DNA from: Tricholomella constricta
Taxonomy: Eukaryota > Basidiomycota > Agaricomycetes > Agaricales > Lyophyllaceae
Direction of reading: 5' to 3'
Length of the DNA: 64,000 nucleotides
NCBI GenBank assembly: GCA_013368375.1
Contig: JAACJP010000007.1
Location: 1,275,253-1,339,252 of the forward strand
This document shows positions 6,378-47,511 of the stretch, in pieces; positions within the stretch are counted from its first letter, which is position 1, and the number at the start of each line of letters is the position of its first letter. Position numbers and translations under genes: made by a program. The notes beneath the pieces are model-generated. The model was not told where the DNA came from. It ran no database searches and saw only the letters and a list, made by a program, of their open reading frames with translations.

Positions 6378-7755
6378 TTACTCCTCCGCCTCCTCCTCCT
6401 CCTCCGCCTCCTCCTCCTCCTCCTCCTCCTCCTCCTCCTCCTCCTCCTCGTCTTCCTCCTCCTCCTCTTTCTCCAGTTTAAACTCTAAAAAGTCCTTGAA
6501 TTCTTCCAACTCCTGCATCACCATCTCCTTGAAGGGCTCCGGAGTCATGTTCCCAGTGTAAGAGATAACGATCAAGACTTGCTCCAAATCAGGGAACCGA
6601 GAGAAGAAAGACGCGAGACTTCTCCAGCCTGTGTAATTCCAGCCCCTTATAGTGGCTAGAGCTGGATTATCAGGTACGGATATTGGAAATGACAGATAGA
6701 TGTCCTTGAGGGGAGTTCCCGCTTTGATGGTAGAGAGAGTAGATAGCAACCATTCTGGGGGGGAGATATAGAAAGGGTCGTCTATTTCGAGTTTAACAGT
6801 GCTGAAGGAGTCGAAGTCCAGGGTTTGAAGGCTTGTATTGCGCGACAAATCGACCGGCTCGATTTCGAACGTTCCCGGAGCTAGCGGTACATTAGTTACC
6901 TCTGTTAATGAATTTGCGGGAGCCTACGATGAACTTACCTATATGAGGCTCGAGCCATAAACGTTGCAGAGAAGCTCCAACCATGCGTGCCATGGCCGAA
7001 GCGGCAGCAAAGTCGAACGTGCCATAAAGGGATGTTACTGTAAGACTTTGAAGGCCCGAGAGGTCAAGGACACAATTTGGGTCTTGAATCCAGTTGATAA
7101 ACTCCAAGCTATGGTAGGACCTTGTCCAAGCAAAATCGCAGATGAAATTTTCCAGACGAACTCTCTGGGGACATGCTGGCTGCGGTGCCAGTTTCTCCAA
7201 CTGACCAGTTCTGGCGAAGTCCAAGTCGCCTTGTATGTCTTCAGGAGAGTCAGTTATAGAAAGCTCGACATTCCGCAAAGGCGCTCCTCGGGAAAGCAGG
7301 AGTTGGATGTCCCCATACGTGGGATCGACCTTCCAGCGATGGATGGTGAACGACGTTAGCGTGGGCAGCGCTAACGTGGCGACAAGGCATTCTCTGAGCG
7401 ACCCCGAGATGTCGAACCATCCTAGGGCGGGCTCCGAAGTTGAGGGGGCGATGAGGACACTTTCGACACGTTTCAGTCGACGGAGGATAGCGGCGAGAAT
7501 GTCTCCTTGCGAAGCCAAGGAAAAGCGACGATTGAACCTGATATAACGGACGAGACGCCCCAAGTGTGGAGATCCGACGAGAAGATCGTGGAAAGATGAA
7601 AACTTTTCGGTTGTAGAGATCTCGACCAAACGAAAGAGGGGCCCTCGAGTGGGCGCATACCAGGAGCGGCACACGAGCGCACAGAACTCGAGGCTTTCGC
7701 GGTCATGAAGGTTGTTGATGATGATTGAAATGAGCTCCTGAGGGAAGGTGTTCAT
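6378..7755 (-). CDS. F-box protein with leucine-rich C-terminal region, copy 1
   Basis: Predicted substrate-recognition subunit of an SCF ubiquitin ligase; the substrate is unknown. Two exons, 6939-7755 and 6378-6901, join across a very short 37-bp GT..AG intron to give 446 residues. The N-terminus holds the F-box (MNTFPQELISIIINNL..., then CALVCRSWYAPTRGPLFR). The middle has irregular Leu-rich repeats (for example CVLDLSGLQSLTVTSLYG). The C-terminus is a poly-Glu run encoded by the microsatellite at 6380-6470. Without splicing the frame stops 12 codons after the donor. A paralog at 45583-46931 has the same intron position, which supports the model. Basidiomycetes carry large families of such F-box/LRR proteins. 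F-box assignment is firm; function is inferred. Confidence 0.88.
6380..6470. repeat. CTC/TCC trinucleotide microsatellite encoding poly-Glu
   Basis: A run of TCC/CTC repeats with a few GCC and GTC interruptions. On the minus strand it encodes the acidic Glu-rich (with Ala and Asp) C-terminus of the F-box protein. It is absent from the truncated paralog at 45.6 kb. Confidence 0.95.
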
Positions 7756-8513
7756 CTCGAGGATGATGAGGAACGAACGATTCGTCCATGGCTATTTAAC
7801 AGATAAGAAATCCGCTCTTTGTTCCAGGTTCGGCTGATGAGATTGGCCTTTACATAATCTTCCACCGAAATCATTGTCCGTGATTGAATCCTTCCATCAT
7901 CTATTGTCTTCACGTCAATTCCAAGGTCACTTGAACGTCCTTCTGACAGACTGTAACCTCTTCCTCACAAGGCTGGGTCTGTACGAACAATAGTAACACA
8001 TAGCATGGGGACCGGGGTTTTGAAAATCTGATCGAAACCGTTCTGAACTTCCTCGCCTTTTGTGTTTGCTGTGTCCGATGCTCCATAGGATGAGACGTCC
8101 AGACGTCCACACCCGATCGCGTCAGCAAATCTCCAGATGCTTTTGCTTCCGGCTTCCTATCTGACTTTCTCCGGATCCGGTCGCTTTTGCTCGGGCTTTT
8201 CGACTTTTTCGACTTTTGCTTTACTTGTGGACCTTGAATGTCTAATGCTTACATATATTGTCTTTGGCCTTTTGACATCTGTAAGGGCTTTACGAAGATG
8301 AGGTACTAGTAAAGATTTTACAATTAAAATTATTTCTGAGTGGCATCATGAAAACCTGGAGACTCGGAGAAACCGGAAACTGTCATGACTCGTCCGACCT
8401 CAGTACTCAGTGACTGTTCCTGCTCAGGGACAAGGGTCTATTTTTACTGAGCAAGGCTTGCTTGAATCGAACACTCGACTTCAAATCCTGGCTGGCACCT
8501 CTGGCGCACCGCC
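7756..8513. promoter_or_regulatory. upstream region of F-box copy 1 (duplicated promoter)
   Basis: No gene is visible here. The first ~350 bases match the region upstream of the second F-box gene (46932-47330), including a shared stretch around 'aaggctgggtctgtacgaac' (20 nt). The promoter was therefore copied with the gene. About 29 bases at 7817-7848 are in opposite orientation between the two copies. The right end abuts the duplicated SDR tail. Confidence 0.7.
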
Positions 8514-9090: not shown

Positions 9091-9940
9091 TCAGGAAGAA
9101 AGAGGAACGAGACCCAGTGAACTGCAGTGTCGAAGGTGTAGTGGAAGCGGTAAAGACTTGGTGAGGATATCAGCCGTCATCTCCGAAGTCGAGATCCAGG
9201 AAGTAGAGAAGGATCCAGAACGAATATGTTCGCGTATGAAATGGTAGCGAATGTCGATATGTTTAGAACGCGAAGAGGTGGAGTCCGAGTTTGCGATTTC
9301 GATGGCGCTTTGATTATCACAGAGTAGAGGAAATGGGTGTGGGGCAGGAAGGCCGAGAGAGCGTAGAAATTGACGCATCCAGATTGCTTCCTTCATGGCA
9401 TGGGAAATCGACATGTACTCCGCTTCGGTAGATGATAAGGCAATAGTGCGTTGTCAGACAGCGCTCCAGGATACGAGACTAGAGTATAGGAAGAAGACGT
9501 AACCCGAAACGCTGCGTCGATCAGACTCGTCCGATGCCCAATCGGCATCCATCATTCCGCAGTCGCTAGGAATAAGGAGACGAAGCGGGGGGCCGACGGG
9601 GGTCTGAGAGAAATTGTATTCCAAAGACCAATCGAGAGTACCGATAAGGTATCGCAGGACACCCTTTGCAGCAAGTAGATGCGAACGAGAAGGGGAGGCG
9701 TTGAATTGACCCAAAGCCATTGCAGTATAAGCGAGATCAGGGCGAGTGCACAAAGCAAGGTAGAGAATAGAACCGACAAGTCGCTGATAGTGAACGGTAA
9801 TTTCGCTATCCGGTACCTCAGGCAAAGCGTTCGGCGGTGCATCAGGGAGAGTTGAAAGTTTCTTGGGAAGAGGAAGAGAGGCGGGATGAGCGGAGCTGAG
9901 GTTATACTGAGCGAGGAGATCGACAACGAATGACCGTTGA
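9091..9940 (-). pseudogene. Copia reverse transcriptase C-terminus and RNase H
   Basis: This segment completes the Copia polyprotein after the Gypsy insertion. Reading leftward from 9940 it gives RSFVVDLLAQYNL, the Copia segment LVGSILYLALCTRPDLAY, then RNase H motifs: the first Asp in MMDADWASDESDRRS, SSTEAEYMSISHAMKEAIW, LLCDNQSAIEIA and KHIDIRYHFIRE. It ends at 9091. A TGA at 9454-9456 replaces a sense codon just before QRTIALSSTEAEY, so the frame is broken there. Joined to 15829-17788 through the GTTGA duplication it restores KLWLSQ-RSFVVDLL. Confidence 0.9.
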
Positions 9941-10444
9941 TGTTAGGGCAACCCTTGCGGTGGAGCGTGATCACACTGGCAAAGGGGAATTCGAAGTTAT
10001 ATTGAGGTACAGTAAACGAAGGTAAGTAAGGCTTACCTGGCAAAGGGGAATCCGAAGAGAATAGTGTAAAGGATTCCCAAATGCCAGGGGGCCGACTATA
10101 TACGAGTGTAGGATGTGAGGGCCGGTCCTCCAGAGTGTACTGTACATGTAATAATAACGAATGGTGTGCGGCACGTGTATGGACACGTTCCCGACGCTGT
10201 CCGATCCTCGTGGCTCAGGGTACGGGCACGAGGTGGGACAGCCGACGTCGGGGTGTCGGGTCGTCGAGATCGGCGTCGGGTGCACGCAGGGAAGGTGGGG
10301 AAACGACAGGAAGTGAGTAAGTATGTACACCGACGCTTGGGTCGGAGCATCGGGTCGGGATCGCGATCGGTCGGTCGGGGGCGAGCGCGTGAGTCGGGAA
10401 CGATCTGTGAGCGTCAGAGAGCGTGAACGAGAGTTCCCCTAACA
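9941..10444 (-). repeat. Gypsy-1 3' LTR (504 bp)
   Basis: Starts TGTTAGGGCAACCC and ends CCCCTAACA on the plus strand. The matching copy is at 15324-15828. Left flank GTTGA. Confidence 0.95.
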
Positions 10445-15197: not shown

Positions 15198-15323
15198 CTC
15201 GAGACGGGACTGGGCGACGATCGGAGCGGGCGTGCATTGGACGGGTTGCGTGTAGCAGACACGTGTTTCGGCGCGGAGGCTGATCGGTCGGCTTCGTCGG
15301 GTCTCCGGTTTACACTATTCTGC

Positions 15324-15828
15324 TGTTAGGGCAACCCTTGCGGTGGAGCGTGATCACACTGGCAAAGGGGAATCCGAAGTTATATTGAGGTACAGTAAAC
15401 GAAGGTAAGTAAGGCTTACCTGGCAAAGGGGAATCCGAAGAGAATAGTGTAAAGGATTCCCAAATGCCAGGGGGCCGACTATATACGAGTGTAGGACGTG
15501 AGGGCCGGTCCTCCAGAGTGTACTGTACATGTAATAATAACGAATGGTGTGCGGCACGTGTATGGACACGTTCCTGCCGCTGTCCGATCCTCGTGGCTCA
15601 GGGTACGGGCACGAGGTGGGACAGCCGACGTCGGGGTGTCGGGTCGTCGGGATCGGTGTCGGGTGCACGCAGGGAAGGTGGGGAAACGACAGGAAGTGAG
15701 TAAGTATGTACACCGACGCTTGGGTCGGAGTGTTGGGTCGGGATCGCGATCGGTCGGTCGGGGGCGAGCGCGTGAGTCGGGGAACAATCTGTGAGCGTCG
15801 GAGAGCGTGAACGAGAGTTCCCCTGACA
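15324..15828 (-). repeat. Gypsy-1 5' LTR (505 bp)
   Basis: Partner of 9941-10444, with 12 substitutions and one single-base indel. Right flank GTTGA. I see no clear tRNA-type primer binding site in the bases just inside it on the minus strand. Confidence 0.95.
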
Positions 15829-21161: not shown

Positions 21162-21166
21162 TCTCG

Positions 21167-21386
21167 TGTAAGGACGCCCACTATCTTATCTAATCTTGGT
21201 TATCTAATCGTATCTTATCGAGACGATTACGCTATTGTTTGGCAACACCTTCTGGTGTTGCCTATTTAATTCATTACATTAATTAAGTATAAACAACCTT
21301 GTACACCTATACGTAGCAATCGACAGACTTGTCAAGCTTACGTCTAGTGTGAACAACAAGGTCCCAAATTCTGTAACCCCGTTACA
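21167..21386 (+). repeat. Gypsy-2 5' LTR (220 bp)
   Basis: TGTAAGGACGCCC...CCCCGTTACA. It contains a perfect 9-bp hairpin GGCAACACC/GGTGTTGCC at 21241-21262. It differs from the 3' LTR only in AATTAAGTAT versus AATGAAGTAT. No tRNA-type primer binding site is obvious in the T-rich bases that follow. Confidence 0.97.
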
Positions 21387-21496
21387 TTTTTTTAAGCTAC
21401 CTTGCTTTCTATTGCTGCGTACCCACGACGTTACGCAGACCCACATTCCATTTAGAACACCCATCATCAAAAAAGAACCAACGAGACCGAGACCCG

Positions 21497-22723
21497 ATGA
21501 CAACAACTCCCACATCCGGAAAGAGCCGAACTCCGGTCCTCGAGGATGCGCTCACAGCGCATCCTCCATCACAACTTCCACTGCAACCAGTGGAAGTCGG
21601 ATCAGTCGCTGGTGGACAAAGTTCACCAGCGCAGAATACACTAGGAGTAGAATCGGAGGAACTTTGGCCAATAGCAAGCACCAATGTGCCTGGGAGCTTG
21701 GCCGACGAATTGGCCAGGTCACATCGACCTGGCCCCACGGCGGGAAGCAGATGGCCAGACAGCCGTCTGTCGAATAGAGCGTTCGGGGCGTCCACCCTGA
21801 GCATAATCAAGATGGAGTCGGACGAAGACGACTTGTCCGACCCCGAGGCTAATGAAGAAGAGGCCAGCGAAAGGGAACTGCTTGCGCTTCAAGTGAAGCA
21901 ATTCTGGGACACCACCGATGTGGTTAGCGAGCATCGGCGAAGGCGACTGGAGGAACGAGCGGATAGGCTCGTTCTGCGATCTACCGGAGCACAATCCGTT
22001 GGAGAAATGGTCGCACAAGCATATGCCGACCGATACTTGGAAGCGCTGTCCGTAGTAGTTACGGAATACAGGAAGAAGTACCCTAAGGGAACTTCGAATT
22101 CAGCAGTCAGCTCGATCGCTGGGACGCCTGTACCTAAGAAAGCCTCGTTCAACAAAGGAAAAGGTCGTTGGGATGACCTCTTCACTCCTCAAGCAGTGGC
22201 TGCCGGATCGAACCAGCCTCTTGATGAGGCTGCCATGGCAGTATCGGCGCTGCATCAAGCGCGACAGTTAGGAGAATCTGACGACGATTATCGTCGTCGG
22301 TCTGCGGCAGCGAAGCGCGAAAGAATGACTCGTGAAGAGCATCTTGCGCAACCACAGGGATCCAAATGGGCCCCTGTTAGTGAGTCTACGTTAGACCCAC
22401 CCACGGAACGTAAGTATACAACCACGCAAGCAGCTGGCGACGAAAGCGCGCCAGCTATTCAAGTACCTATGGATGCGAAGGATGGCCGTGTTCCATTAGC
22501 GAAAGATTGGAACAACCGAGTCGCATATCAGCGTTTGAGAAACGCTGATTTATCACGGAGCAAGTTCACGAATTATGATGATCAAGGAGTCGTCTTCGAA
22601 GGACATATGCCCGTAGATGAGATGGCGAGGCAATGGGCCTCGCAAACTCAAGGTTCGGATGGTGGACTGGGAAATGGGGCCGTCGGAAAACATAATACGA
22701 CGGCGACGGCTAACGGCCGTTAA
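21497..22723 (+). CDS. Gypsy-2 ORF1, unrecognised 408-residue protein
   Basis: It lies at the position of an N-terminal Gag extension or leader protein. Low-complexity N-terminus, then an acidic stretch (MESDEDDLSDPEANEEEASE), an Arg-rich helix (SEHRRRRLEERADRLVL) and a helical part (AYADRYLEALSVVVTEYRKK). No known domain is recognised. It ends in TAA at 22721-22723. Three bases later, in the same frame, comes the ATG of the gag-protease ORF, so stop-restart or readthrough could link them. The coding sequence is dense in hairpins, for example 21542-21566 (11-bp arms) and 21574-21597 (10-bp arms). Confidence 0.75.
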   Translation: MTTTPTSGKSRTPVLEDALTAHPPSQLPLQPVEVGSVAGGQSSPAQNTLGVESEELWPIASTNVPGSLADELARSHRPGPTAGSRWPDSRLSNRAFGASTLSIIKMESDEDDLSDPEANEEEASERELLALQVKQFWDTTDVVSEHRRRRLEERADRLVLRSTGAQSVGEMVAQAYADRYLEALSVVVTEYRKKYPKGTSNSAVSSIAGTPVPKKASFNKGKGRWDDLFTPQAVAAGSNQPLDEAAMAVSALHQARQLGESDDDYRRRSAAAKRERMTREEHLAQPQGSKWAPVSESTLDPPTERKYTTTQAAGDESAPAIQVPMDAKDGRVPLAKDWNNRVAYQRLRNADLSRSKFTNYDDQGVVFEGHMPVDEMARQWASQTQGSDGGLGNGAVGKHNTTATANGR

Positions 22724-22726
22724 GAC

Positions 22727-24577
22727 ATGCGGGTTCGTATAAATGAACCCACTTCACACGCTCAGCCTCGATTTCAAAGTCGAGGCTACTCAATGCCTGA
22801 CCCGATTCGCAGGAGTCAATCAATTGCGGACGGAATATATGCTGCTGGAGAGCAGCATAAAACTAAGATGCACGAACGGTTGCATCAACTGATACACGAG
22901 CGACTGGCTGTACGCCTATCGCTCCCTGATGGTATGAAATCTCGCCGTGCGGACTCAAAGTCCGTAGGCACTTATAGTGGAAGCGCCAAGTTTGGCGAAT
23001 TGGAAGAATGGCTAGCCAGCCTTGTCGTGATGCTAGCCGTGAGCCAGTTTGGAGGAGCAGAACGCGACCAAGAGCGCGTTCTGATAACATCTGAGTTCCT
23101 TGATGGTGAAGCTCGGAAATGGTACAATCGCCATGTTATCCATGTGAACCGCGAAAAGCAGTCCTGGACGTTTGAAGACGTCATACTAGGGCTGTACGAT
23201 TGGTTCGTGCTGCCTTCAACCATGCAGGATGCTCGTAACGACTTTAACGCCGTTACCTATTCGGCGAGCAAAGGCATACAAGGTCTGTATGACGACCTTG
23301 TGGATCATGCCATGAACATGGCAGCAAGAACGGATGATTGGACGTTCCTGGAGAAATTTCTCAAAACACTTCCGCGCGATATGCGGAAGGCATTATTCGA
23401 TGACGGGCTATCACCCGAAATCAATACAGCCCAAGAGTTCCTAGCGGTGGGCCTAGCACTTCAAGCCACCCAGAAAACGGCTGATTACTTTGAGCGGACC
23501 ATAACCGCTCAGCGAAGTCAACCGAGCCAAATGCGGAAACCAGATGGAGGGCGAGTAAACGCTCCACACAATACTTTCAACAGGCCTCGACGGGTGTATG
23601 GCGCAGTAAATGAAAAGCCATATGTCAAGCCAGCGTATCAGGATCAACCTGGACGTGGAGAGCAAAAGCCCCACGTCGAAAAACCAGCGATGAAGACAGG
23701 AGATCGTCCGCGTTACGATCAACCTAAAAACCACGATCATCACAACCATCCTCCGGGGGAAGTGTGCTTTAATTGTGGAAAACTAGGGCATTTTGCAAAA
23801 GATTGCAAACAGCCCAAGAAACAGCGAGCGTTCCTAAGGGCCGCACGTACAGCGGCACCTGACGCGGCAAGTGAGGCGGACGATGAAGACACGTCTCCTG
23901 AGGACCCGGACGGACGAGACAATGGACGCCCTGATACAGAGGCGGACAATGAAGACGAAGGCGATGAGTTCGTAGACATGGAGGTCTACGAAAATGAATA
24001 CTATGCTCGGGACGATGAGACCGAGCGTATGTTTGCAATGACAGAAGTAATTGCGTCAGAAGAACGCAATGATAAACCACCAGTTCGCAAAGTTAAAGTG
24101 CGGACGGGGAGGGACAAAATTGCTCGTCCCGTAGTTCTGATAAAGGACAAGGAGTGCCTTGTCACCTACATTAACGTAGGTGGACATGAGGCTTGGACCC
24201 TTTGGGATTCCGGGAGTACAACTACCGGACTTACGCCGTCATTCGCTCAAGTGGCCGATATTCGAGTATTTCCGCTGGAGGATCCATTAATCCTCCAGCT
24301 CGGGACTAAAGGAAGTCGGGCCACAGTAAACTTTGGTACGACGGTGGAAGCCGCTCTGCCAGGGTTTAAAGGCAAGGTTTACATGGACCTTGCTAACTTT
24401 GATCGATACGACGTGATTATAGGCACGCCGTTTATGCGCGCAAATAACGTCGTGCTGGACTTTAACCGTGACGAAGTGGTCGTCAATGGAGTCGCTATAC
24501 CAGCGACTAAGGTAAAAATGGAGGATACCGATGGCCGAGCTAGACGCCATCGGTCATTGGAGAAACGAAGAGAATGA
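22727..24577 (+). CDS. Gypsy-2 Gag and aspartic protease
   Basis: 616 residues. The gag domain (about residues 80-240) shows GELEEWLASLVVMLAVSQFG, FLDGEARKWYNRHV and SWTFEDVILGLYDWFVLPST. A CCHC zinc knuckle CFNCGKLGHFAKDCKQP lies near residue 345. An acidic linker is followed by a retropepsin-like domain with WDSGSTTTGLTPSF and VIIGTPFMRANNVVLDFN. It ends at a TGA (24575-24577) followed by CTA, with the pol sequence open in the same frame beyond. Gag packages the RNA and the protease matures the polyprotein. No breaks are seen. Confidence 0.92.
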   Translation: MRVRINEPTSHAQPRFQSRGYSMPDPIRRSQSIADGIYAAGEQHKTKMHERLHQLIHERLAVRLSLPDGMKSRRADSKSVGTYSGSAKFGELEEWLASLVVMLAVSQFGGAERDQERVLITSEFLDGEARKWYNRHVIHVNREKQSWTFEDVILGLYDWFVLPSTMQDARNDFNAVTYSASKGIQGLYDDLVDHAMNMAARTDDWTFLEKFLKTLPRDMRKALFDDGLSPEINTAQEFLAVGLALQATQKTADYFERTITAQRSQPSQMRKPDGGRVNAPHNTFNRPRRVYGAVNEKPYVKPAYQDQPGRGEQKPHVEKPAMKTGDRPRYDQPKNHDHHNHPPGEVCFNCGKLGHFAKDCKQPKKQRAFLRAARTAAPDAASEADDEDTSPEDPDGRDNGRPDTEADNEDEGDEFVDMEVYENEYYARDDETERMFAMTEVIASEERNDKPPVRKVKVRTGRDKIARPVVLIKDKECLVTYINVGGHEAWTLWDSGSTTTGLTPSFAQVADIRVFPLEDPLILQLGTKGSRATVNFGTTVEAALPGFKGKVYMDLANFDRYDVIIGTPFMRANNVVLDFNRDEVVVNGVAIPATKVKMEDTDGRARRHRSLEKRRE

Positions 24578-27500
24578 CTAAAAGTAACAGTAGAAGATGA
24601 CGATGATCCTGATAATGAGGGTAGGCCGATAAACAGCCTACCGAAGGATCATCCAGCACTTTTATTATCCGAGGAAGAGTTTCAAGAAACTCTTAAGGAG
24701 GGGGATAAGCCACCTCCGAAGAAGAGAAAACCCCAACGACGACAGCAGAAGGCACAAAACGAGCCTTCGAACGAACGAGCACAGGTTGACGAGCCATGCG
24801 AAGAACATCAGCGCGATAATGAAGCGCGTAAGACGAGCGGGGCCGACAAGGATACGGAATCAGAGCCGTATACGAATACGAGTAATCGATCATTTTGGGA
24901 TAGACCAAATCCACATCCACAATATGAGTGGATGTTCGACCCACGGATGCCGCAAGAATGGAACGCAGTAATAGCGTCAATGCGGGCTCACGAAGGAAGA
25001 AATGTAGGCACGCGAGGACAAGCGTACCGAAATCCACGGCCTGAGGAAGTATCGGAGCCAACGGAAATGAATTTTCCGGTGAATATACAACGGGCTAAAC
25101 GGCCGTTGTATCGGTTACCAGTGAAGGATGAGAGTGACTTTGCTCTCGTAAAACTACGAGCTAGGTTTGATGTTAAACCTAGCAATAAAGACACAGCGCA
25201 CATTCGCGCTGCAAGAACGGTGAACAGAAAAGGTAAGGCACCCAATGGAGGCCTTACCGCGGAAGATTATCCACGACTTCGCCAGCAATGGCATGACGAA
25301 TTCGAAGATATGGTGGGTGGTACGAAACAACAGCTACCACCCTGGCGGGAAGTCAATCACGAGATTACTCTCATCGATGATGAGAAACAGTACCAGTACC
25401 ACGCGCCGAGGTGCCCAATGTCCCTTCGCGAGGAATTCTACGCGAAGGTCAATCGGTATACGGATTCTAAATGGTGGGAGCCTCGTTCGGTGAAGCAAGC
25501 AGCGCCGCTGCTATGTATCCCGAAAAAAGACGGCTCCCTGAGAACACCCTTGGACGCACGCCAGCGTAACGATAACACGATCAAGGACGTTACGCCCTTG
25601 CCAGACCAGGAAGTTATTTGCGAAGATGTCGCTAGGGGAAAAATACGGTCCAAAATTGACTTAACGGATGCGTATGAACAAGTACGCATCCTTGAAAAAG
25701 ATGTACATAAAACCGCCTTCGCAACGATAGCGGGAACATACATCAGTAACATCATGCAAATCGGGGACTGTAATGCTCCCGCGACATTTCAACGATTAAT
25801 GACGTCCATCTTTCGGGACGTCATTGGGAAGTTCATGCATGTATACTTGGACGATATATTCATATTCTCGAACTCTATTGAGGAACATGAAGACCACTTG
25901 CGAGTTGTGTTCGAACGATTACGCGAACAATCGCTCTACCTTAAATGGAAGAAATGCGAATTGTATTCGGATCGCGTTGATTGCCTTGGTCATATTATTG
26001 ACGACCAAGGAATTCACCCTGACGCCGACAAACTGGCACGGATCCGTGACTGGAGGATACCACGGAATTACAACGATATCCAACGATTCGTTGGACTTGT
26101 TAACTATCTGGGACAGTTTCTCCCAGATATATCTGCATACACTGGTCCACTAATGGCGATGACCGAGAATGGGTCGCCATTTTATTGGAGACCAATTCAT
26201 CAGCGATGCTTTGAAATGATAAAGCATATATGCTGCACAACGCCAATTATTCGGCCGATTCAACCGAAGACAGGCGAACCAATTTGGATTATCTGTGACG
26301 CCTCCAAGTCAGGCGTCGGTGCGATGTATGGACAAGGACCTACATGGATCCAAGCCCAGCCGGCTGGATTCATGTCCAAAAAATTCACTAATGCACAGCA
26401 GAATTATGCTGTGCATGAACTCGAGACCTTAGCTATTCTCGAAGCGTTACTTAAGTGGGAGGATAAACTTGTGGGCTATAAAATCCACATCATTACCGAC
26501 CATAAAGCCCTCGAATTCTTTAAGACCCAGGTGAATTTATCACCTAGGCAGCGTCGATGGATGGAATACATGTCGCGATTTAACTTCGACATAACCTATG
26601 TGAAAGGCGAACTGAACAAAGTCGCCGACTGTCTATCGCGATACTTCGAGAGCGATAACCATCAAGATCGTTACGACGTCCACGACTTCGTAGCTGCTGA
26701 TGCTAGAATCGATCCTACTGGTGAAGATCTACCAGTACCACGATACCATGAAATCGTGGAAAAAGTAGTTGAGATTCGAGCGATGAAAGACGTAGAAATA
26801 CGTCGAAGCAAGCGTCTTCAAGAACGCCAGGAGGATCGAGATGTCGAGGCTCAGATAATGGAGGCTGCGGCACCAAGTACCGCATCCGGAACATCGTCAC
26901 ACCCTCAGAAAAGCATGAGTCCAACCGAACGGGAACGTACGGTCGGAGATATTGTCCTCGGGAGGGACACAGTTTCTCCTCCCCCAGACAAAACGGATGA
27001 AAAGATCCGTCACGACGTTATCCTTGGATACCCAAAGGATAAACTATTTTCAGTTATTCTCGCTAACCCCAGGGACTTTCGTACGTTCACCACGAAAGAC
27101 AATCTCATTTGGACCACGAACGCTATAAATGATAGCGTTCTATGTATACCGCGAGAACCCGAGCTCATCACCACAATTATTGAGCAAGCCCATAAAACTA
27201 TGGGCCATTTCGGTGCCGAACGGACTACTGAATATATTCGACGATGGTATTGGTGGCCATCACTAGCCACGACCGTGCGTACGTTTTGTAAAACGTGCGA
27301 GTACTGCCAGCAGATCAAGACGTCGAATCAAAAACCGTCAGGGAAACTACACTCCCTGCCAGTACCAACTAAGCCTTGGGATTCTATCGGAATGGACTTT
27401 ATCGGTCCATTTCCAGAATCAAAGGGATATAATTACCTATGGGTAGTAATTTGTCGTATGACGAGTATGGTGCATATGATACCCATACATACGACGATGA

Positions 27501-28477
27501 CAGCAGCCCAATTATCATGGGTATACTTACGGGAGATCGTCAGGCTCCATGGCCTGCCAAGCTCGATCGTAAGCGATCGAGACTCTAAGTTTACTTCACG
27601 CTGGTGGCGCGAACTACATAAGTTATTAGGAGCTAAGCTCCTAATGTCGACATCTTTCCATCCTCAGACGGATGGACAAACGGAGCGAGCCAATCGTAGT
27701 ATTGGCCAGATATTTCGTGCCGTTGTGAGGCATGACCAAAAGGATTGGGTAGATTGTATACCCATGGCTGAGTTCGCGATAAATGCGAGCGTATCGGCTA
27801 CTACCAAGTTCGCTCCATTTGAGCTGAATAGTGGATACATGCCGTCCATGTTGAAAGAGATACGCTCAGACAGCGTAATACCGAAGGGAATTCGAGAGTA
27901 TGCGGAACGCGCATTGCAGAATATAGCGGAGGCGCATGACGCTATAATCGAAGCGCGCGTATTTCAAACGCGCGAGGCAAACAGGCGCCGATCCGCTGGT
28001 CCAGAAATAAAGGGGGGAGACTTGGTGTATTTATCCACCAAGAACTTGAACCTCCCCAAGGGACGCGCCCGTAAATTGTGCCCGAAATTCGTCGGGCCCT
28101 ACAAAGTGCTGAAGGCCATGCCAGACACGTCGAACTATACGTTGGAATTACCTACGGCACTCATGGAGCGCCGGATACATCCAACATTTCATATATCGAT
28201 GTTGCGCCCATACTACGCAACGAATGATACAATGTTCCCTAATAGAACTCATCCGGAGCCCTACGATTTTGGGGCGCCGGATAATCACGAATGGTTTGTA
28301 GAAGATATTTTGGGCCATAGATGGACCCAAAATAATACTGTGGAATATCAGGTTAGGTGGAGCCTGGGAGACACCACCTGGGAACCGCACACCAATTGTA
28401 ACAAGTTAGCGGCACTGGATCGCTACTTGGAACTACAAGGGGTGAAGAGCGCGTCGAGATTACCGCGACGAACCTAG
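24578..28477 (+). CDS. Gypsy-2 Pol: reverse transcriptase, RNase H, integrase, chromodomain
   Basis: Open in the gag-protease frame from the codon after the TGA at 24575; the first ATG is at 24932. After a charged linker come the reverse transcriptase (CIPKKDGSLRTPLDARQRND, KIDLTDAYEQVRI, HVYLDDIFIFS), RNase H (IICDASKSGVGAMYG, AVHELETLAILEAL, IITDHKALEFF, ADCLSRY), integrase zinc finger (H-x-H...CKTCEYC), integrase core (GMDFIGPFPES, IVSDRDSKF, DGQTERANRSIGQ) and a C-terminal chromodomain (VEYQVRWSLGDTTWEPHTNC). All catalytic residues I can check are present. It is probably made as a Gag-Pol fusion by stop-codon readthrough. The sequence is strongly enriched in perfect inverted repeats. Confidence 0.93.
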   Translation, partial: LKVTVEDDDDPDNEGRPINSLPKDHPALLLSEEEFQETLKEGDKPPPKKRKPQRRQQKAQNEPSNERAQVDEPCEEHQRDNEARKTSGADKDTESEPYTNTSNRSFWDRPNPHPQYEWMFDPRMPQEWNAVIASMRAHEGRNVGTRGQAYRNPRPEEVSEPTEMNFPVNIQRAKRPLYRLPVKDESDFALVKLRARFDVKPSNKDTAHIRAARTVNRKGKAPNGGLTAEDYPRLRQQWHDEFEDMVGGTKQQLPPWREVNHEITLIDDEKQYQYHAPRCPMSLREEFYAKVNRYTDSKWWEPRSVKQAAPLLCIPKKDGSLRTPLDARQRNDNTIKDVTPLPDQEVICEDVARGKIRSKIDLTDAYEQVRILEKDVHKTAFATIAGTYISNIMQIGDCNAPATFQRLMTSIFRDVIGKFMHVYLDDIFIFSNSIEEHEDHLRVVFERLREQSLYLKWKKCELYSDRVDCLGHIIDDQGIHPDADKLARIRDWRIPRNYNDIQRFVGLVNYLGQFLPDISAYTGPLMAMTENGSPFYWRPIHQRCFEMIKHICCTTPIIRPIQPKTGEPIWIICDASKSGVGAMYGQGPTWIQAQPAGFMSKKFTNAQQNYAVHELETLAILEALLKWEDKLVGYKIHIITDHKALEFFKTQVNLSPRQRRWMEYMSRFNFDITYVKGELNKVADCLSRYFESDNHQDRYDVHDFVAADARIDPTGEDLPVPRYHEIVEKVVEIRAMKDVEIRRSKRLQERQEDRDVEAQIMEAAAPSTASGTSSHPQKSMSPTERERTVGDIVLGRDTVSPPPDKTDEKIRHDVILGYPKDKLFSVILANPRDFRTFTTKDNLIWTTNAINDSVLCIPREPELITTIIEQAHKTMGHFGAERTTEYIRRWYWWPSLATTVRTFCKTCEYCQQIKTSNQKPSGKLHSLPVPTKPWDSIGMDFIGPFPESKGYNYLWVVICRMTSMVHMIPIHTTMTAAQLSWVYLREIVRLHGLPSSIVSDRDSKFTSRWWRELHKLLGAKLLMSTSFHPQTDGQTERANRSIGQIFRAVVRHDQKDWVDCIPMAEFAINASVSATTKFAPFELNSGYMPSMLKEIRSDSVIPKGIREYAERALQNIAEAHDAIIEARVFQTREANRRRSAGPEIKGGDLVYLSTKNLNLPKGRARKLCPKFVGPYKVLKAMPDTSNYTLELPTALMERRIHPTFHISMLRPYYATNDTMFPNRTHPEPYDFGAPDNHEWFVEDILGHRWTQNNTVEYQVRWSLGDTTWEPHTNCNKLAALDRYLELQGVKSASRLPRRT

Positions 28478-28605
28478 AATGTGGCGCGGTCATGTGACCA
28501 CGGCGATCAAGAAAATTACATAACCATCAAAAGTTATGACAGAAGGTTAAATATGTTTGGCGCTAGACGCGCAACCGATTTTCAACCCTCTCAACACAAA
28601 CCAAC

Positions 28606-31560
28606 ATGTACCCCAGCCAAGTACCAACCTCCAGCAACGACGCGATTCGGGGCGGCGACAGCCGCACCGACCAGCAAAATTTGAACCCGGGGCCGAGTTC
28701 AAGTGGGGAGGGAGCGCAGGGGCGCGCGGAAAATGCGCCCCTGCCCCCAACTTACATGGGCTCGCAGCCCCAATTATACCAATATCCTCCGGTTGGCCAT
28801 ATGAGCCAACCGCCCCATCAGGGGCAACAAACATTTCCGACGGTTGGCCATATGAGCCAACCGCACCACCAAGGGCAACAACCACCTATGGGTGGTTTTT
28901 ACCCGCCAGGGCTGGCATTCCAACAGATGCCATCAATGGCGGGTTTCATGGGGTACACGCAACCGACGTGGTACCCCCAAATGCCCATGCAGCCTGTACC
29001 GCACAATACGCGGTACAACGAATCGGAGAAGATGGAGGTAGACGACCAAAGTCGTCTGCAAGCAAATGTCCCGCCGGCGCAAGGGGTGCGCGGCGAACCG
29101 GTGCGGCAACATGTTGCACCGAATGCAGACGACAAAGCGTCGTCGGCGTCGAGTTCGCGGAGGATGGCAGACGATCGTAGAGTATCGCCTGCGTCAAGTT
29201 CGAGGAGACCATTCGCAGACGATGGTCTCCTTTCTTCTCTCTTGGATCGATTGGAAGACGCGGGTATTCACCGCGAATTTTGTGATTTCTTGGACGATGG
29301 AATGGCGCAGCTGGTTATAACCCAGCTGCTTGATGCATACGATGGAGTTTGCGCGGATTTGAGACGCGTGAAAGCGAGAGAAGCGGCCATGGCTGAGCAA
29401 CTCAGCCTGGCAAGAAAACGGCCGGCAGTAGCATCGCCGGATCGCGGGGAGGGACCATCGTCCCGACCCATAAAAAGGCAGCAAATGGAGGTGCGTCGAG
29501 AAGAACGCACCTCATACGAGCCGCGACGACAAGAGAGGAGCGAGCCCAGGCGTCCGGAACGATGCCTGGAACAGGAGAATCGGCGGTACAACCGCCACCC
29601 CGACCAGGAAGTGTGGCGTGACGAACGCCCACTTGATTATGGTTCTCAACGGGAAGAGCGCCGAGAGGATCAAGGGACGCGCGAAGTGCACCCCTTACCT
29701 GCTCGAGAAATCGAGCGCACGGCGTCGACATCGTCGACGTCAGCGGAAGCAAAGCCGCAAAACCTATCCGGAGCGTTACCGCCCCCGGGAGAAAGCCGGG
29801 TGCGGAACCCAGAACGAGGTTCTCAGAAGAAGGAACCTGTTGGCAAATATACTTTGCCAGCGCCAGCCCCTGCACCACCTAGTACGATGGTGCAGCCCCC
29901 AACGCCGCCATCCAAAGGCAAACAGAAGGCATCGGATCCATATGCCGAGGCTATGGATGAATCGGACTGGGGCGAGTCGTCTGACGACGACAAGCCTGTC
30001 AGCAAGAAGAAGGCTGCCGGGCAAAAGCAGCATCGCGAGAATATGGCTCGCAAAGCTGAGAAGGAGATGCCGGGGCGGATCCCTGACGAGCTCGGGGTGG
30101 TCTTCATCAACGACCGCCACGAGAGGGACAACCGTTTTTGGGATATGCTAGTGCGGACGATATATGTATCGTCCGCCCAGAATCGTGCCTACGCACTAGG
30201 CACCGCAGCGCGAGTGTCCGAAAGCGAGTTGGGGATGGGACACAATTCTCGTCCCCCATCGGGACGGCTATATGCCGTCGCACCACGCGGGTTCCCAATG
30301 AACCCTCGTGAAGTTGATCAGTTGTATGCACTGATCAACGATCGGCGCCCCGGCGTGACGGATGAAGAGCGGGCAGAGGCCTTTATGCTCTTTAGGGAGT
30401 TCCGGCGAGTCTCCCTCTCGGTAGCGCCCCATTTGCGCGACCGATCCATGGCTCGAGCAGCCATGGATGAATTTAGAAGCGTCAACCGACCGTTCGATAC
30501 ACGGTCACCCATTTGGCAGGCCGCGCCAATTAGGCGGCCTGGGAGGGCATTCGAATATAGGCCGGACAAGCCTACACGAGGCGCTGGCCTGCCTCAGCCA
30601 GGCCCCGACCATGCCCTCGATGTCGAGCACTGGTGCCGACATATGATTCACCATGGGCGTATTGGTTCAAAGAACCAATACGGAGGAATCGTCATGGACT
30701 ACCGGTTCCGCGTACATAGGCGCGGAACTTGGGGATACTTGTTGGCGAATGTACTAGCGCCAACTACCCACAGCATGCGGTCATGGTTCATGCGACTTTT
30801 CGCGACCATTACTGCGCGGCCATACCTCTACGCAGAGGCTGTGGCTGCCTATAACGAGGCCAACCCAGATCGGCCTTTCACACCGATCGAAGGCCCTGAG
30901 GTTACCATACCTCGCATCCAAGTGATCCCTCCGGAGGTGTGGATCACTGAACAAGGTGTCTTGCAACACCTTATCAACATTGGTATTCCAGTAAGCTGGA
31001 TACATCATAGCTACACTTATGGTCTACATTATTTGGACCATAACTACTCTAACTCAGGTCCCTATAAGGACCTGTTCCGCAATGTTGACGACGATCGAGT
31101 TCGTCGTCTAGATGAAATGGGTGTTCCGCCCGCCATCCCTGAGTGGGATGGGTGGTACCATCCCACCACCGACGACATCACGCGCATCCAAACACTGATG
31201 CACGTGGAGTTCCAGACCGAATCACTAGACTGTCTAGTGAGTTCGGAATGGATGTTTGTGGGTGAAGACCCACACTTCCGAGGACTCCGTGTTCGGGTGG
31301 GGGAATATCTCCCCCCAGGCCTGCATCACCCAGCTTCATCGGGATCGACGTCCATCAACGTCGAAATGGCGGACCCGGCGGCAGCTATACCTGCCCCCGC
31401 GACACCCTCCACAGTCGTGGCAGCTCCAACTGGAGCTACCGAAACCCAAGTGGACCCCGTGTCGGCCCTTACAGGGCCTTTATCACTGGCGGTGATTACC
31501 ACCAGCCAGGGTCTGGTGGACAACAACACCACCGACCCCGACACAGTGATGGAGTCATAG
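28606..31560 (+). CDS. Gypsy-2 extra ORF downstream of pol, 984 residues, unrecognised
   Basis: An intact 984-codon ORF lies between pol and the 3' LTR, the position used by env or accessory genes in some Gypsy elements. Residues 1-170 are Pro/Gln/Gly-rich with a duplicated VGHMSQPxHQGQQ motif. Residues 180-300 hold Ser/Arg-rich and helical segments (LLDRLEDAGIHREFCDFLDD). Residues 300-470 are highly charged (Arg/Glu). Residues 480-960 look globular (VVFINDRHERDNRFWDMLVR, ALDVEHWCRHMIHH, YGLHYLDHNYSNSGPYKDLF, SEWMFVGEDPHFRGLRVRVG). I see no signal peptide and no membrane-spanning segment, so a membrane envelope is unlikely. The function is unknown. It is as rich in hairpins as the rest of the element, which ties it to the element's own history. 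Confidence 0.8.
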   Translation: MYPSQVPTSSNDAIRGGDSRTDQQNLNPGPSSSGEGAQGRAENAPLPPTYMGSQPQLYQYPPVGHMSQPPHQGQQTFPTVGHMSQPHHQGQQPPMGGFYPPGLAFQQMPSMAGFMGYTQPTWYPQMPMQPVPHNTRYNESEKMEVDDQSRLQANVPPAQGVRGEPVRQHVAPNADDKASSASSSRRMADDRRVSPASSSRRPFADDGLLSSLLDRLEDAGIHREFCDFLDDGMAQLVITQLLDAYDGVCADLRRVKAREAAMAEQLSLARKRPAVASPDRGEGPSSRPIKRQQMEVRREERTSYEPRRQERSEPRRPERCLEQENRRYNRHPDQEVWRDERPLDYGSQREERREDQGTREVHPLPAREIERTASTSSTSAEAKPQNLSGALPPPGESRVRNPERGSQKKEPVGKYTLPAPAPAPPSTMVQPPTPPSKGKQKASDPYAEAMDESDWGESSDDDKPVSKKKAAGQKQHRENMARKAEKEMPGRIPDELGVVFINDRHERDNRFWDMLVRTIYVSSAQNRAYALGTAARVSESELGMGHNSRPPSGRLYAVAPRGFPMNPREVDQLYALINDRRPGVTDEERAEAFMLFREFRRVSLSVAPHLRDRSMARAAMDEFRSVNRPFDTRSPIWQAAPIRRPGRAFEYRPDKPTRGAGLPQPGPDHALDVEHWCRHMIHHGRIGSKNQYGGIVMDYRFRVHRRGTWGYLLANVLAPTTHSMRSWFMRLFATITARPYLYAEAVAAYNEANPDRPFTPIEGPEVTIPRIQVIPPEVWITEQGVLQHLINIGIPVSWIHHSYTYGLHYLDHNYSNSGPYKDLFRNVDDDRVRRLDEMGVPPAIPEWDGWYHPTTDDITRIQTLMHVEFQTESLDCLVSSEWMFVGEDPHFRGLRVRVGEYLPPGLHHPASSGSTSINVEMADPAAAIPAPATPSTVVAAPTGATETQVDPVSALTGPLSLAVITTSQGLVDNNTTDPDTVMES

Positions 31561-31916
31561 GTCGGGGAGACAACTTAATCCCCCCGTCAACGAACCGACC
31601 TCGACACGTAGGGCGTACCGCCGGGCCGACCGCCATTGTCAGGTGCAGACCACCTGACTCCCGAGGAGCAATCCGCAGGTTGCGTATTAACGCAACATTG
31701 GATGTCCTCACCACCATTCTTTGCCGCACGGCACTTTGAGGCCGTGCAGTGGCGCTAATGCATCCACTACTCGTTAAGTCAAGAATACGTATTATACCTA
31801 CGTATTCTTGCATTATTTGATAGGTCTAGGTCGCCGGGACCTAGACCCTCCTTTTACTCTCTTTTTCTGCCCAACTCCCTGGTGAAGATCGCTACACGCG
31901 ATCTTAAAGGGGGGTA
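31561..31916 (+). other. Gypsy-2 3' non-coding region and polypurine tract
   Basis: Non-coding stretch with long perfect hairpins: arms AAGAATACGTA/TACGTATTCTT at 31781-31809 and GGTCTAGGTC/GACCTAGACC at 31823-31847. The polypurine tract AAAGGGGGG (31906-31914) lies two bases before the 3' LTR and would prime plus-strand synthesis. Confidence 0.85.
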
Positions 31917-32136
31917 TGTAAGGACGCCCACTATCTTATCTAATCTTGGTTATCTAATCGTATCTTATCGAGACGATTACGCTATTGTTTGGCAACACCT
32001 TCTGGTGTTGCCTATTTAATTCATTACATTAATGAAGTATAAACAACCTTGTACACCTATACGTAGCAATCGACAGACTTGTCAAGCTTACGTCTAGTGT
32101 GAACAACAAGGTCCCAAATTCTGTAACCCCGTTACA
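31917..32136 (+). repeat. Gypsy-2 3' LTR (220 bp)
   Basis: One substitution from the 5' LTR. Followed by the target duplication TCTCG at 32137-32141. Confidence 0.97.
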
Positions 32137-32141
32137 TCTCG

Positions 32142-34724: not shown

Positions 34725-37256
34725 CTACGTATAGTATTTTGCGACGGCTTCCTCCAAACTTCGAACTTCATCGGCCTTCCATCGCCAACTGTCGACGTGG
34801 ATAATGGCTGGCTGTTTCCCGGGCCAAGTCCTCATGAGCCGCTGAAGTTCCAACAAGTAGCGACAGCGTTCTTCCTCGTTGTAGCTTGCGATGCTGTGAT
34901 TGGCTTCAGACAGCGGCGCGACGAGGAGTTGTCCTTCGGGAAAGCAATCAGCAACACGTTGTTGTTCTTGCCCAAGATCGAAGTCGGCGGCCCCACGACG
35001 GATGAAAATGTGCATGTGCAACGTGAGAAGCTCCTGGCGAAAATTAAGCTCCGCCAGCTCCCACAAGATCTCCTCAAAGTCCTTGTCCTGAAGATCCCCG
35101 AATGGTTTGCCCTGCCAAGTTTCGTTACCATGGGCAACTTCGCCGATTGAGGTGTCCTCGGCGCTCAAGCAGTTCTGGAGAAAGTCAGACAACAGCTCCA
35201 GGCGTGTCGCGCTCTTCGTCTGACAATCCCCTCTCTTCCTATCGGCGCCGGATGAGCTTTGTTGCAGCCAGTCGAGCCCAAGCAAATCTCTCCAAGCCTT
35301 CCCAGACATCGGCCGCGCATTCGAATCGTTGACGCTGAGGCGATGGATGAGAACCGCGCGATAACGAAGCCAGGCACGGAGGGTCGATGCACGCCGGTCT
35401 CGTTTCTCGTAGGCAATGAACGACGCGGGTTCCGGGAATGCATACCCGAAGTCGGAGCCCAGAACATCTTGGTTGACGAAGTTGCTGGGCGATTGATCGA
35501 CGCTGCGGAGCGCATCACGCCATACCGGGATCGCGGGAGGAAGGATGGCGTCTGGGAGATCTTCGAACTTGCTGCGACCCTGCGGCTCGTATATGGCCTT
35601 GTTTTTCTTGCGCTGGGCATCTATGATGTCCTTGTCAATTGTAGGTAATTCAAACATTGCGATAAGAACTTACAGGGGCTGTACCGTTGTGTGCGAGCCT
35701 TACGATCTGTCATCGGCACATCGGGAGGTGGAACCACGGGTTGCTCCATCCGGTGGGCGTTGAATGGGTTGCAGGTTGTGTGGAAATATCGAGTGAAACG
35801 CCGCATTGCCGTATATTTGGCCAGTTGCGTCGCAGACCCGCGATAGACGACGTTGTAGGAGGGCTTGGATGCAGCGAGCGGAATGAAACCTTTGGCGCGC
35901 TTTGCAGTGACCACTTCGTTGATGCACAGCGTAAGGACATCCACACGGTGGTGAACAAGGAATACAGGTATTTTTAGCCCTAAATAATTCCTCGCAGACA
36001 CCGATGTTGGTAGTGAATGCCTGTTCGGGGAACACCCGTTCACGCCCTCCGACGCTCACCAACTGTTCCCCGACACGTGCGCTCGCTCCTGACCGATCGC
36101 GATCCCGACCCCGACGCTCTGACCCAAGCGTCGGTGTACATATTTACCTTACTCACTTCCTGTCATTCCCCTCGTTTCCCTGTTCATATTCCCGATCACC
36201 TGACATCCCGACGACGGTTACCATCAGACAGCATCCGGAACCCACTCATCATTATCACCTGTCATGGTTATCACATGTCGTTATTATCACATGTACAGTA
36301 CACTATGGAGAGCCTGCCCTCATGTATCACACTTGTATATAGCCGGCCCCCTGGCATCTGGGAATCCTTTACACTATTCTCTTTGGATTCCCCTTTGCCA
36401 GGTAAGCCTTATTTACCTCGTTACAGTACATCAATATAACTTTGGATTCCCCTTTGCCAGTACGACTAAGCTCTGCTCTAAAGGTCGCCCTAACAATGCC
36501 CCCATTACCGGTGCGACTGGCGTCGCTGCATCCACCTCTAACCGGCCACTAATACGCGGTTGATAGATGTCCCGCCAGTCGAGCGCAGCTTGTAGCTCGG
36601 AGTACAGACGCTGAACCTCGCGTACGGCGAGTCGTGCACGACTGAATGTCGTCGGTAAGGAGGTGAGTCGATCAAGGAAGGAATTGAGGATGGGAGGGAT
36701 CTCCCGAGCTGGGGGGTAATTGTCGTAGACGGCACTCCGTGCTTTTTCCATTCAGCAGAATGCAGGGTTTTCGAAGGCGGCTGAGCATATGAGGAGAGAA
36801 GCGCCCGATCTGATAAAATAGACGGTCCTCGCACACAAACTCGGATTCTGCAGGGAGCCACCACATAATTACCACGGGGTCACTGTGATCGCGGGGTGGA
36901 TAACGAATGACTGATAGGTATGGGAGATCCGCGATGTAAGGCTGCGGCCACATCAGTGGGTCATCATCTCCATAGCGTAGATCCTCGCGCAGGAACACCG
37001 GGCGATCTCCCCCCAGAGGCGGATACCGTAGTCTCTTAGAATTCGGCGAAGTCACTACATAGTTTCCCTCCCCAACGATGGCAGCAACTAAGCCATCGGT
37101 CGGCCGAATATCTGACGAACTGTGAAAACAATTTTTAAACATAAAGAAAAGGGACTTACTGGCTGGGTTGAACTGGAGTTTCTGACGCAGGAGTAGTTCA
37201 GGCTTCGCCAACAAGGCTTCCGCAGTTGGGGGTTCGATATACTGGCTTGACATCAC
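34725..37256 (-). pseudogene. KDZ-element accessory gene, split by a solo LTR
   Basis: Multi-exon minus-strand gene starting at an ATG (37256; MMSSQYIEPPTAEALL). Readable segments are GLVAAIVGEGNYVVTSPNSK, PYLSVIRYPPRDHSDPVVIM, EIPPILNSFLDRLTSLPTTF and WRDIYQPRISGRLEVDAATP. Gypsy-family LTR sequence follows at 36022-36495. The gene resumes with IPVFLVHHRVDVLTLCINEV and, in the last exon (about 34725-35657), IPVWRDALRSVDQSPSNFVN, WLRYRAVLIHRLSV and QPAIIHVDSWRWKADEVRSL. I do not recognise the family. Its place beside the transposase suggests a transposon-encoded partner protein. A frame change near 36750 may be a small intron or a frameshift. The LTR makes it inactive. Confidence 0.6.
36022..36495 (+). 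repeat. solo LTR related to Gypsy-1, opposite orientation
   Basis: Starts TGTTCGGGGAACACCCG, ends CGCCCTAACA, and is flanked by the 5-bp duplication ATGCC (36017-36021 and 36496-36500). It aligns along its length with the Gypsy-1 LTR read on the minus strand (shared TTTACACTATTCTCTT and GATTCCCCTTTGCCAGGTAAG-type blocks) but is clearly diverged. No internal sequence remains, so it arose by LTR-LTR recombination. Confidence 0.93.
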
Positions 37257-46931: not shown

Positions 46932-47511
46932 CTCGAGGATTATGAGGAGCGAACGACTCGTCCATGGCTTTTTAACAGATACGAAATCCGCCAATCTCAT
47001 ACCAGCCGAACCTGGAACAAAAAGGCTTTACATAACCTTCAATTGAAGTCACTGGAATTGAATCTATCATTTGTCTATCATCTATTATTTATTGTACGTC
47101 AAAAGTTGACTTACATAAGGTCACTTCAACGTCCGTCTAACAGATTGTTGATAGTAACCTCTTCATCACAAGGCTGGGTCTGTACGAACAATCAGAACGC
47201 ATAGCATGGGGACCGCGGTCCTGAAAATCTGATCAAAAGCTGATCTGAACCTCCTTGGCTTTTGTCTTTGCTGTGTCCGAGTCGGCGTCCGATGCTCCGC
47301 ACAGGATTAAAAAAAATTCACACCCGGTTCCTCTACAGACCTTGACGGCCTATCGCATCCTACTACCGCATCTTACTACGTTACACAGAAAGTACCAACG
47401 AAGTCAATTATATTATACAAGAGTAGTTATGTGACCGAAACGACTCGAAAGTAATGTTTTTGAACGCGACGAATCATCGATTATTTTTCCAGCACGCACC
47501 GAGCATACGTT
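46932..47511. promoter_or_regulatory. upstream region of F-box copy 2
   Basis: Aligns with 7756-8110 upstream of copy 1, apart from a short inverted block (46990-47021). Beyond 47330 the similarity ends. No gene is visible between here and the 3' end of the MADS-box gene. Confidence 0.65.

Follow-up and report, generated by a model that had tools for sequence, protein, structure and literature searches.

We analysed a window of 64,000 nt of Tricholomella constricta DNA, to whose positions all coordinates refer. At 21167-32136 it contains a complete Ty3/Gypsy-type long terminal repeat (LTR) retrotransposon of about 11 kb that carries short perfect hairpins from one end to the other. The element is bounded by two direct repeats of 220 bp each, the 5' LTR (21167-21386, TGTAAGG...CCGTTACA) and the 3' LTR (31917-32136), which are 99.5% identical across 221 nt. 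A 5-bp target-site duplication, TCTCG, is found in the flanking sequence on both sides (21162-21166 and 32137-32141) and fixes the 3' limit of the 5' LTR at 21386. Between the LTRs there are four open reading frames (ORFs) on the + strand, as are all features of the element described in the following. ORF1 (21497-22723) encodes 408 amino acids. It is followed by gag (22727-24577), which contains a zinc knuckle as well as a protease-like match below threshold, and by pol (24932-28477), which encodes reverse transcriptase, RNase H and integrase. The Pol domains RVT_1, RT_RNaseH, Integrase_H2C2 and rve, all above their cut-offs, occur in that order, i.e. the order of Ty3/Gypsy elements. The match to the chromodomain PF00385, a domain found at the C-terminus of Pol in the chromovirus branch, was weak, with 19.5 bits against a cut-off of 25.1. 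The reverse transcriptase carries MQIGDCNAPATFQ at the place where Ty3/Gypsy enzymes usually have a motif resembling MPFGL.NAPATFQ. The element is completed by ORF3 (28606-31560, 984 amino acids) and a 3' non-coding part (31561-31916) with the polypurine tract AAAGGGGGG at 31906-31914.

For ORF1 and ORF3 neither Pfam nor NCBIfam gave a match, and a sequence comparison of ORF3 with solved structures returned nothing at E <= 1. A model of an ORF3 domain (12 sequences) reached a predicted local distance difference score (pLDDT) of 78 and a predicted template modelling score (pTM) of 0.66; searched against PDB and viral models it gave no structural match at E <= 0.001. Homologues of ORF3 were found in agarics, namely in Lyophyllum shimeji of the Agaricales (53%) and in the agaric Psilocybe cubensis (31%), and a piece of ORF3 has relatives at about 47% in a second family of the same genome (F2, see below). 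Within ORF3 a 51-nt tandem duplication (28782-28883, 86% alike) contains a perfect hairpin twice, CGGTTGGC/GCCAACCG, with no difference between the two units.

Hairpins were defined as perfect inverted repeats with loops of 3-12 nt, unless stated otherwise, and were counted by minimum arm length. Over 21167-32137 we found 172, 105, 57, 30 and 14 of them with arms of at least 6, 7, 8, 9 and 10 bp, respectively. Five dinucleotide shuffles of the element provided expected numbers of 18.2, 4.8 and 1.0 at arms of at least 6, 7 and 8 bp, such that hairpins with arms of at least 6 bp are about nine times as frequent as expected by chance. For the remaining 52.9 kb of the window the corresponding counts were 118, 41 and 9, with 102.6, 25 and 5.8 expected. 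Non-overlapping hairpins with arms of at least 6 bp numbered 160 at a mean spacing of 69 nt, and they were spaced more evenly than at random (8 of 500 random placements were as even). They occurred in both LTRs, in all four ORFs and in the 3' non-coding part, which has six with arms of at least 7 bp; the 128-nt gap between pol and ORF3 was the only listed stretch without such arms. In the 5' LTR the inverted-repeat listing places hairpins at 21205-21229 and 21241-21262. The longest one, with 12-bp arms and a loop of 7 nt, lies at 31780-31810, and one with 9-bp arms and a loop of 8 nt (25666-25691) falls into the DAYEQVRI motif of pol.

We permuted synonymous codons 40 times per ORF, preserving the protein and the codon counts within each ORF. 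Hairpins with arms of at least 7 bp numbered 13, 16, 28 and 33 in ORF1, gag, pol and ORF3, while the permutation means were 0.92, 1.4, 2.17 and 2.1 and the maxima 3, 4, 7 and 4. No excess was found in the pol and gag of Gypsy-1 or in the pol and gag of Copia, two elements of the same window, where counts of 2, 0, 0 and 1 compare with permutation means of 1.8, 0.82, 1.15 and 0.7. Folding energies gave a similar picture: for 21 windows of 200 nt within the element the mean z-score was -3.5 on the + strand and -3.65 on the - strand, with 71% of these windows below -2, while flanking windows had mean z-scores of -0.30/-0.32 (n=42) and -0.03/-0.04 (n=63). The hairpin excess is thus real and not a matter of chance.

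These data bear out what an initial annotation of this DNA had claimed, i.e. that hairpins occur along the element at a density beyond chance, that synonymous positions were shaped to pair and that the excess is specific to this element within the window. All eight hairpin strings quoted there were found and are complementary. Three of them are longer than had been given (25798-25825 and 28716-28744, both with 10-bp arms, and the 12-bp hairpin at 31780-31810). Its count of 11 hairpins with arms of at least 8 bp in 25086-26416 was close, as our listing of 25085-26416 holds 16 with arms of at least 7 bp, of which 12 reach 8 bp (two with loops of 14 and 16 nt).

The excess depended strongly on arm and loop length. 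At loops of 3-12 nt it was absent for arms of 3-4 bp and amounted to about 1.5-fold at 5, 4-fold at 6, 12-fold at 7 and 20-fold at 8 bp. At loops of 13-40 nt arms of at least 7 bp were found 18 times with 15.3 expected. Within the range of 21-40 nt we noted eight arms of exactly 8 bp (1.6 expected) and three of 7 bp (9.3 expected). The stems also favoured particular codon registers: at arms of at least 8 bp the two registers that pair third with second or first positions comprised 24 and 16 hairpins and the third-third register 9, while at arms of 3-4 bp the three registers were about equally frequent (381, 356 and 376). The first two, in which two of every three pairs have a free third position, thus outnumber the remaining one by 40 to 9, as predicted if the stems were built by synonymous change.

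Loops were enriched in A (1.20x), and the stems had raised numbers of TA and lowered numbers of AA steps; both features look RNA-like. Among the 20 commonest loops listed no GNRA or UNCG tetraloops were prominent, and the element gave no match to Rfam at the gathering score. The sequence CAGA was about fourfold enriched in the loops of the element and its relatives (27 versus 6.9). An apparent preference for a closing pair with a 5' pyrimidine (57 to 23 against shuffles, loops of 5-7 nt) shrank against the synonymous null (135 versus 117.7 of 238) and was discarded. The idea that stems end without residual pairing was ruled out, since stems with a single mismatch were likewise in excess.

We next compared the element with its copies and relatives, labelled L010-L049, all from the same genome. 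A search with gag, in which 71 of 320 candidate places were scored, gave 73 matches, 72 of them at 83-100% identity, and in a search with the LTR all 40 scored places of 211 candidates were 99-100% identical. The genome thus holds at least 70 copies or fragments, and judged from these matches the element is young and repeated. Copies or pieces at 84-92% identity (L031, L037, L039-L044) contained 5.8-8.2 arms of at least 7 bp per kb with 0.4-0.7 expected; the copy of the window has 9.6 per kb. More distant relatives at 56-58% Pol identity were also rich in hairpins, with 16 and 22 such arms in 4 kb each of L046 and L047 and 14 in 3 kb of L049 (expected 1.8, 2.05 and 1.5). Viral contigs searched by Pol yielded no confirmed related locus, and plasmids searched with pol DNA for near matches yielded none.

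The positions of the hairpins were far less stable than their density. Of the 52 pol hairpins in the copy of the window, 31 were in register in L041, 4 in L046, 2 in L047 and 4 in L045, and L046 and L047 shared 10 of 24 with each other; chance sharing in register would be 0.02-0.18. Among the shared ones are the hairpin at 26105-26129 (9-bp arms), which both L046 and L047 have in register, the latter with one compensated change from a G-C to a C-G pair, that at 27562-27581 (CTCGATCG/CGATCGAG, arms identical in L046) and that at 27657-27676 (in register in L046 and L047), while the hairpin in the DAYEQVRI motif has a shorter counterpart in register in L046. Since distant relatives are rich in hairpins and share few positions, the density stays high in deep comparisons even as most positions are exchanged. 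On these alignments the hairpin trait is old and largely position-free.

Evidence on how the hairpins are kept came from sequence change at fourfold sites. L040, L041 or L043, chosen by identity, served as the outgroup copy for defining the stems, and changes were scored between the copy of the window and L037, L044 or L031. In all nine comparisons stems changed less than the background, by a factor of 0.27 to 0.88 (e.g. 8/140 versus 128/691 and 4/91 versus 90/553). This supersedes an earlier test in which the stems came from one of the two compared copies and changed at about half the background rate, roughly what ascertainment alone would give. Among 206 singleton variants of 21 young copies we counted 24 losses of stems with arms of at least 7 bp (expected 28.5, standard deviation (SD) 4.1) and 10 gains (expected 6.1, SD 2.1), and 18.4% of the singletons lay within stems with arms of at least 6 bp, which cover 20.3%. 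Singletons break more stems than they make, such that unselected mutation would lead to a net loss of stems. Together with the slowed change of outgroup-defined stems and the removal of the excess by codon permutation, this makes it likely that natural selection maintains the hairpins, one of the possible causes named by the initial annotation.

We then asked which base pairs count. In seven pooled sequences stems of at least 9 positions with a single mismatch were in excess by 6.7-fold for G.T, 9.0-fold for A.C and 10-fold for A.G, and near-stems of at least 8 positions exceeded the synonymous null 3.09-fold with one G.T and 4.16-fold with one A.C. Over 14 directed comparisons stems were broken to G.T 337 times and to A.C 358 times, with 4312 and 4280 like transitions outside stems (Fisher p 0.41). 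The minus strand moreover folds as well as the plus strand (z-scores above). G.U is thus not counted as a pair, and the stems are Watson-Crick only.

From these findings we propose, with a probability of roughly 40%, that selection acts on the number of hairpins and not on their positions, maintaining about 160 Watson-Crick hairpins from LTR to LTR, and that these fold the genomic RNA as well as the minus-strand complementary DNA (cDNA). The hairpins would have to form in the plus-strand genomic RNA and then again in the minus-strand cDNA. Wobble pairs would be of no use for this, as a G.U in one strand corresponds to an A.C in the other. A need to fold in both strands would explain why the stems are strand-symmetric and restricted to Watson-Crick pairs, and stems formed in RNA and its complementary cDNA would show RNA-like features without wobble. 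The benefit would most likely be that long single strands, pairing with themselves at intervals of about 70 nt, take up little space in the particle and are inaccessible to foreign or antisense strands. The hairpins are accordingly predicted, on this model, to fold both the RNA and its DNA copy. More tentative is a stronger form of the proposal, by which the fitness of the element is set by the number of Watson-Crick-only hairpins and not by their location, and stems forming twice, in RNA and minus-strand cDNA, constitute a two-strand structural code that extends over four genes and both LTRs and has been kept across more than 40% polymerase divergence.

Several observations weigh against this proposal. 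In their aligned parts all eight pieces compared had fewer arms of at least 7 bp than the copy of the window (e.g. 69 versus 81, 64 versus 83 and 36 versus 51); several of the poorer pieces are broken, older copies, and with fewer hairpins in every relative the density is not constant. Family F2 (L045 and L048, 73% Pol identity) was only weakly enriched, with 5 and 8 arms of at least 7 bp and about 1.7 and 1.9 expected. It nevertheless occupies at least 12 places of equal score for a 133-amino-acid reverse transcriptase piece, such that a high density is not required for spread. The slowing of stems was slight (factor above 0.8) in three of the nine comparisons (12/89 versus 78/507, 9/69 versus 85/540 and 6/84 versus 40/480), and the nine share lineages and include mosaic copies and are thus not independent. 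Compensatory changes were few, with 9 of 538 cells in the test of third-third pairs described below, which is not above unconstrained pairs. The ratio of G.T to A.C varied from 0.52 to 1.67 in single comparisons. Stacking steps overall fitted neither RNA nor DNA energies well, and the sharp loop limit at 12 nt holds in the family of the window, while loops in L046, L047 and L049 tail to about 20 nt. Finally, 131 of the 206 singletons (L010-L035, pol region) were C>T or G>A, the pattern expected from deamination of methylated cytosine; the singletons may be mutations acquired in the host after insertion and thus a weak sample of reverse-transcription errors.

Among the alternatives, selection on the structure of the plus-strand RNA alone, for packaging signals, RNA stability or escape from RNA silencing, similar to the genome-scale ordered structure of viral RNAs, fares best, although we consider it unlikely. 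The folding z-score of -3.5, loops that are A-rich and mostly of at least 3 nt, and stems slowed at synonymous sites would all be expected from it. If only the plus-strand RNA mattered, however, G.U stems should far exceed A.C stems relative to chance, while in the three tests above G.U was not preferred. The equally good folding of the minus strand, the lack of prominent GNRA or UNCG tetraloops among the 20 commonest loops listed and the lack of an Rfam match at the gathering score argue in the same direction. The suggestion of the initial annotation that RNA structure is selected needs to be changed with respect to wobble pairs.

A second alternative, to which we assign a slightly lower and likewise small chance, is that the hairpins reflect mutation instead of function: reverse transcriptase or a repair process would fold back on near-palindromes and copy one arm onto the other, leaving hairpins as by-products. 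It would account for perfect Watson-Crick arms without G.U, for strand symmetry, for the turnover of places and for the similar behaviour of coding and non-coding parts. Stem gains in young variants slightly above random (10 versus 6.1, see above) and among variants common to 2-10 copies (5 versus 2.2, SD 1.3) are consistent with it as well. Arm-to-arm copying should, on the other hand, produce many compensations at synonymous pairs. In 12 directed comparisons with repeated lineages, so that the counts are not independent, the 538 cells of third-third stem pairs comprised 437 unchanged, 86 broken, 9 compensated and 6 doubly changed pairs without pairing; of third-third pairs drawn at random, 46-73% showed no change and 2-5% a compensation. 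Between the copy of the window and L044, 46, 19, 6 and 2 of 73 stems had 0, 1, 2 and 3 mismatched pairs, a fall-off as expected from single-base events. Also, singleton losses exceeded gains, though singletons sample reverse transcription weakly, and Gypsy-1 and Copia of the same host are without excess. Arm-to-arm templated repair was thus unsupported by third-third pairs, per-stem differences and young variants. Of the ideas of the initial annotation the templated perfecting of palindromes is therefore the less supported, given single-base stem differences, few compensations and recent variants that make fewer stems than they break. Divergence of the arms without compensation, which it had named as evidence against shaped hairpins, was found in part, with 86 breaks to 9 compensations in third-third pairs, while compensation accounted for 95 of the 136 double changes counted across the full set of stem pairs, modestly more than the 45-56% in control pairs.

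Even less probable is a role in chromosomal DNA, by which hairpins in resected single strands would hinder homologous pairing among copies and thus reduce ectopic recombination or homology-based silencing. Symmetric Watson-Crick-only stems, their even spacing of about 69 nt and their presence in the LTRs would fit such a role. The stacking in stems is, however, not DNA-like (TA raised, AA lowered), and mosaic copies show that exchange occurs. In particular, L014, L018, L025, L031 and L036 look like mosaics of subfamilies similar to the window copy and to L037, with 15 breakpoint intervals. Hairpins were not enriched in the 13 usable intervals, nor was there a clear depletion (0.25 versus 0.31, SD 0.08). 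Hairpins as recombination breakpoints were likewise rejected, as no association was seen in these 13 intervals. Chance or an artefact of composition, to which a slight surplus in the rest of the window (41 versus 25 arms of at least 7 bp) might point, is refuted by the synonymous permutations and also by the shuffles, the neighbouring elements and the relatives, and its probability is negligible.

Outside the element the window contains further repeats. An LTR-like pair (9938-10444 and 15321-15828, 97%) flanks the Gypsy-1 ORFs, and a relative of this pair at 74% lies in reverse orientation at 36021-36495. For the stretch 10001-10200, folding of the + strand gave a z-score of -6.0. A 1.6-kb repeat, 86% identical, occurs at 6454-8078 and 45638-47280.

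Plus-strand RNA viruses can have genome-scale ordered RNA structure, in which a genome-wide excess of pairing is achieved via synonymous sites and the places are not fixed. The element resembles them in its pairing excess via synonymous sites and in a folding energy below that of sequence-order controls. It differs by discrete perfect hairpins with small loops, by giving no credit to G.U and by the equality of the strands. The RNA of Ty3 was described as a mosaic in which stable regions alternate with dynamic ones, the stable, highly structured regions making up to 30% (PMC11381356). It is likewise the structured RNA of a Ty3/Gypsy element, but it is not described there as a chain of perfect hairpins. 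An origin of RNA hairpins by template switching (PMC8794818) would likewise give perfect Watson-Crick arms. Such an origin should leave compensatory changes that span several bases, and these are rare in the element.

Among the literature examined, the coding palindromes in mitochondrial DNA of Nematomorpha, proposed to be by-products of arm copying, are the closest published case (PMC6649704). There too perfect inverted repeats lie in conserved coding sequence, with gains and losses, and codon phase 1 is favoured and phase 3 disfavoured, similar to the 24, 16 and 9 hairpins per register in the element (PMC6649704). The Nematomorpha palindromes, however, are mitochondrial and up to 284 bp long, their arms undergo concerted evolution, and imperfect repeats are not in excess (PMC6649704). 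The element is a retrotransposon with evenly spread arms of 6-12 bp and an excess of single-mismatch stems, and its arms do not evolve in concert (9 compensatory versus 86 single changes). In a literature search, none of the titles and abstract beginnings among the matches listed dealt with an LTR retrotransposon carrying perfect hairpins throughout its genome.

Claims that base pairing is selected in coding sequence have usually rested on weak statistics and on specific cis-elements. Here the signal is about twentyfold at arms of 8 bp, spans a whole element and recurs in several related families within one genome, with family F2 as a natural contrast for what the hairpins do. The proposed causes of genome-wide structure, i.e. 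packaging, protection, copying, escape from silencing and templated mutation, are directly testable in this system. The element would also be a clear example of selection that recognises Watson-Crick pairs and disregards G.U.

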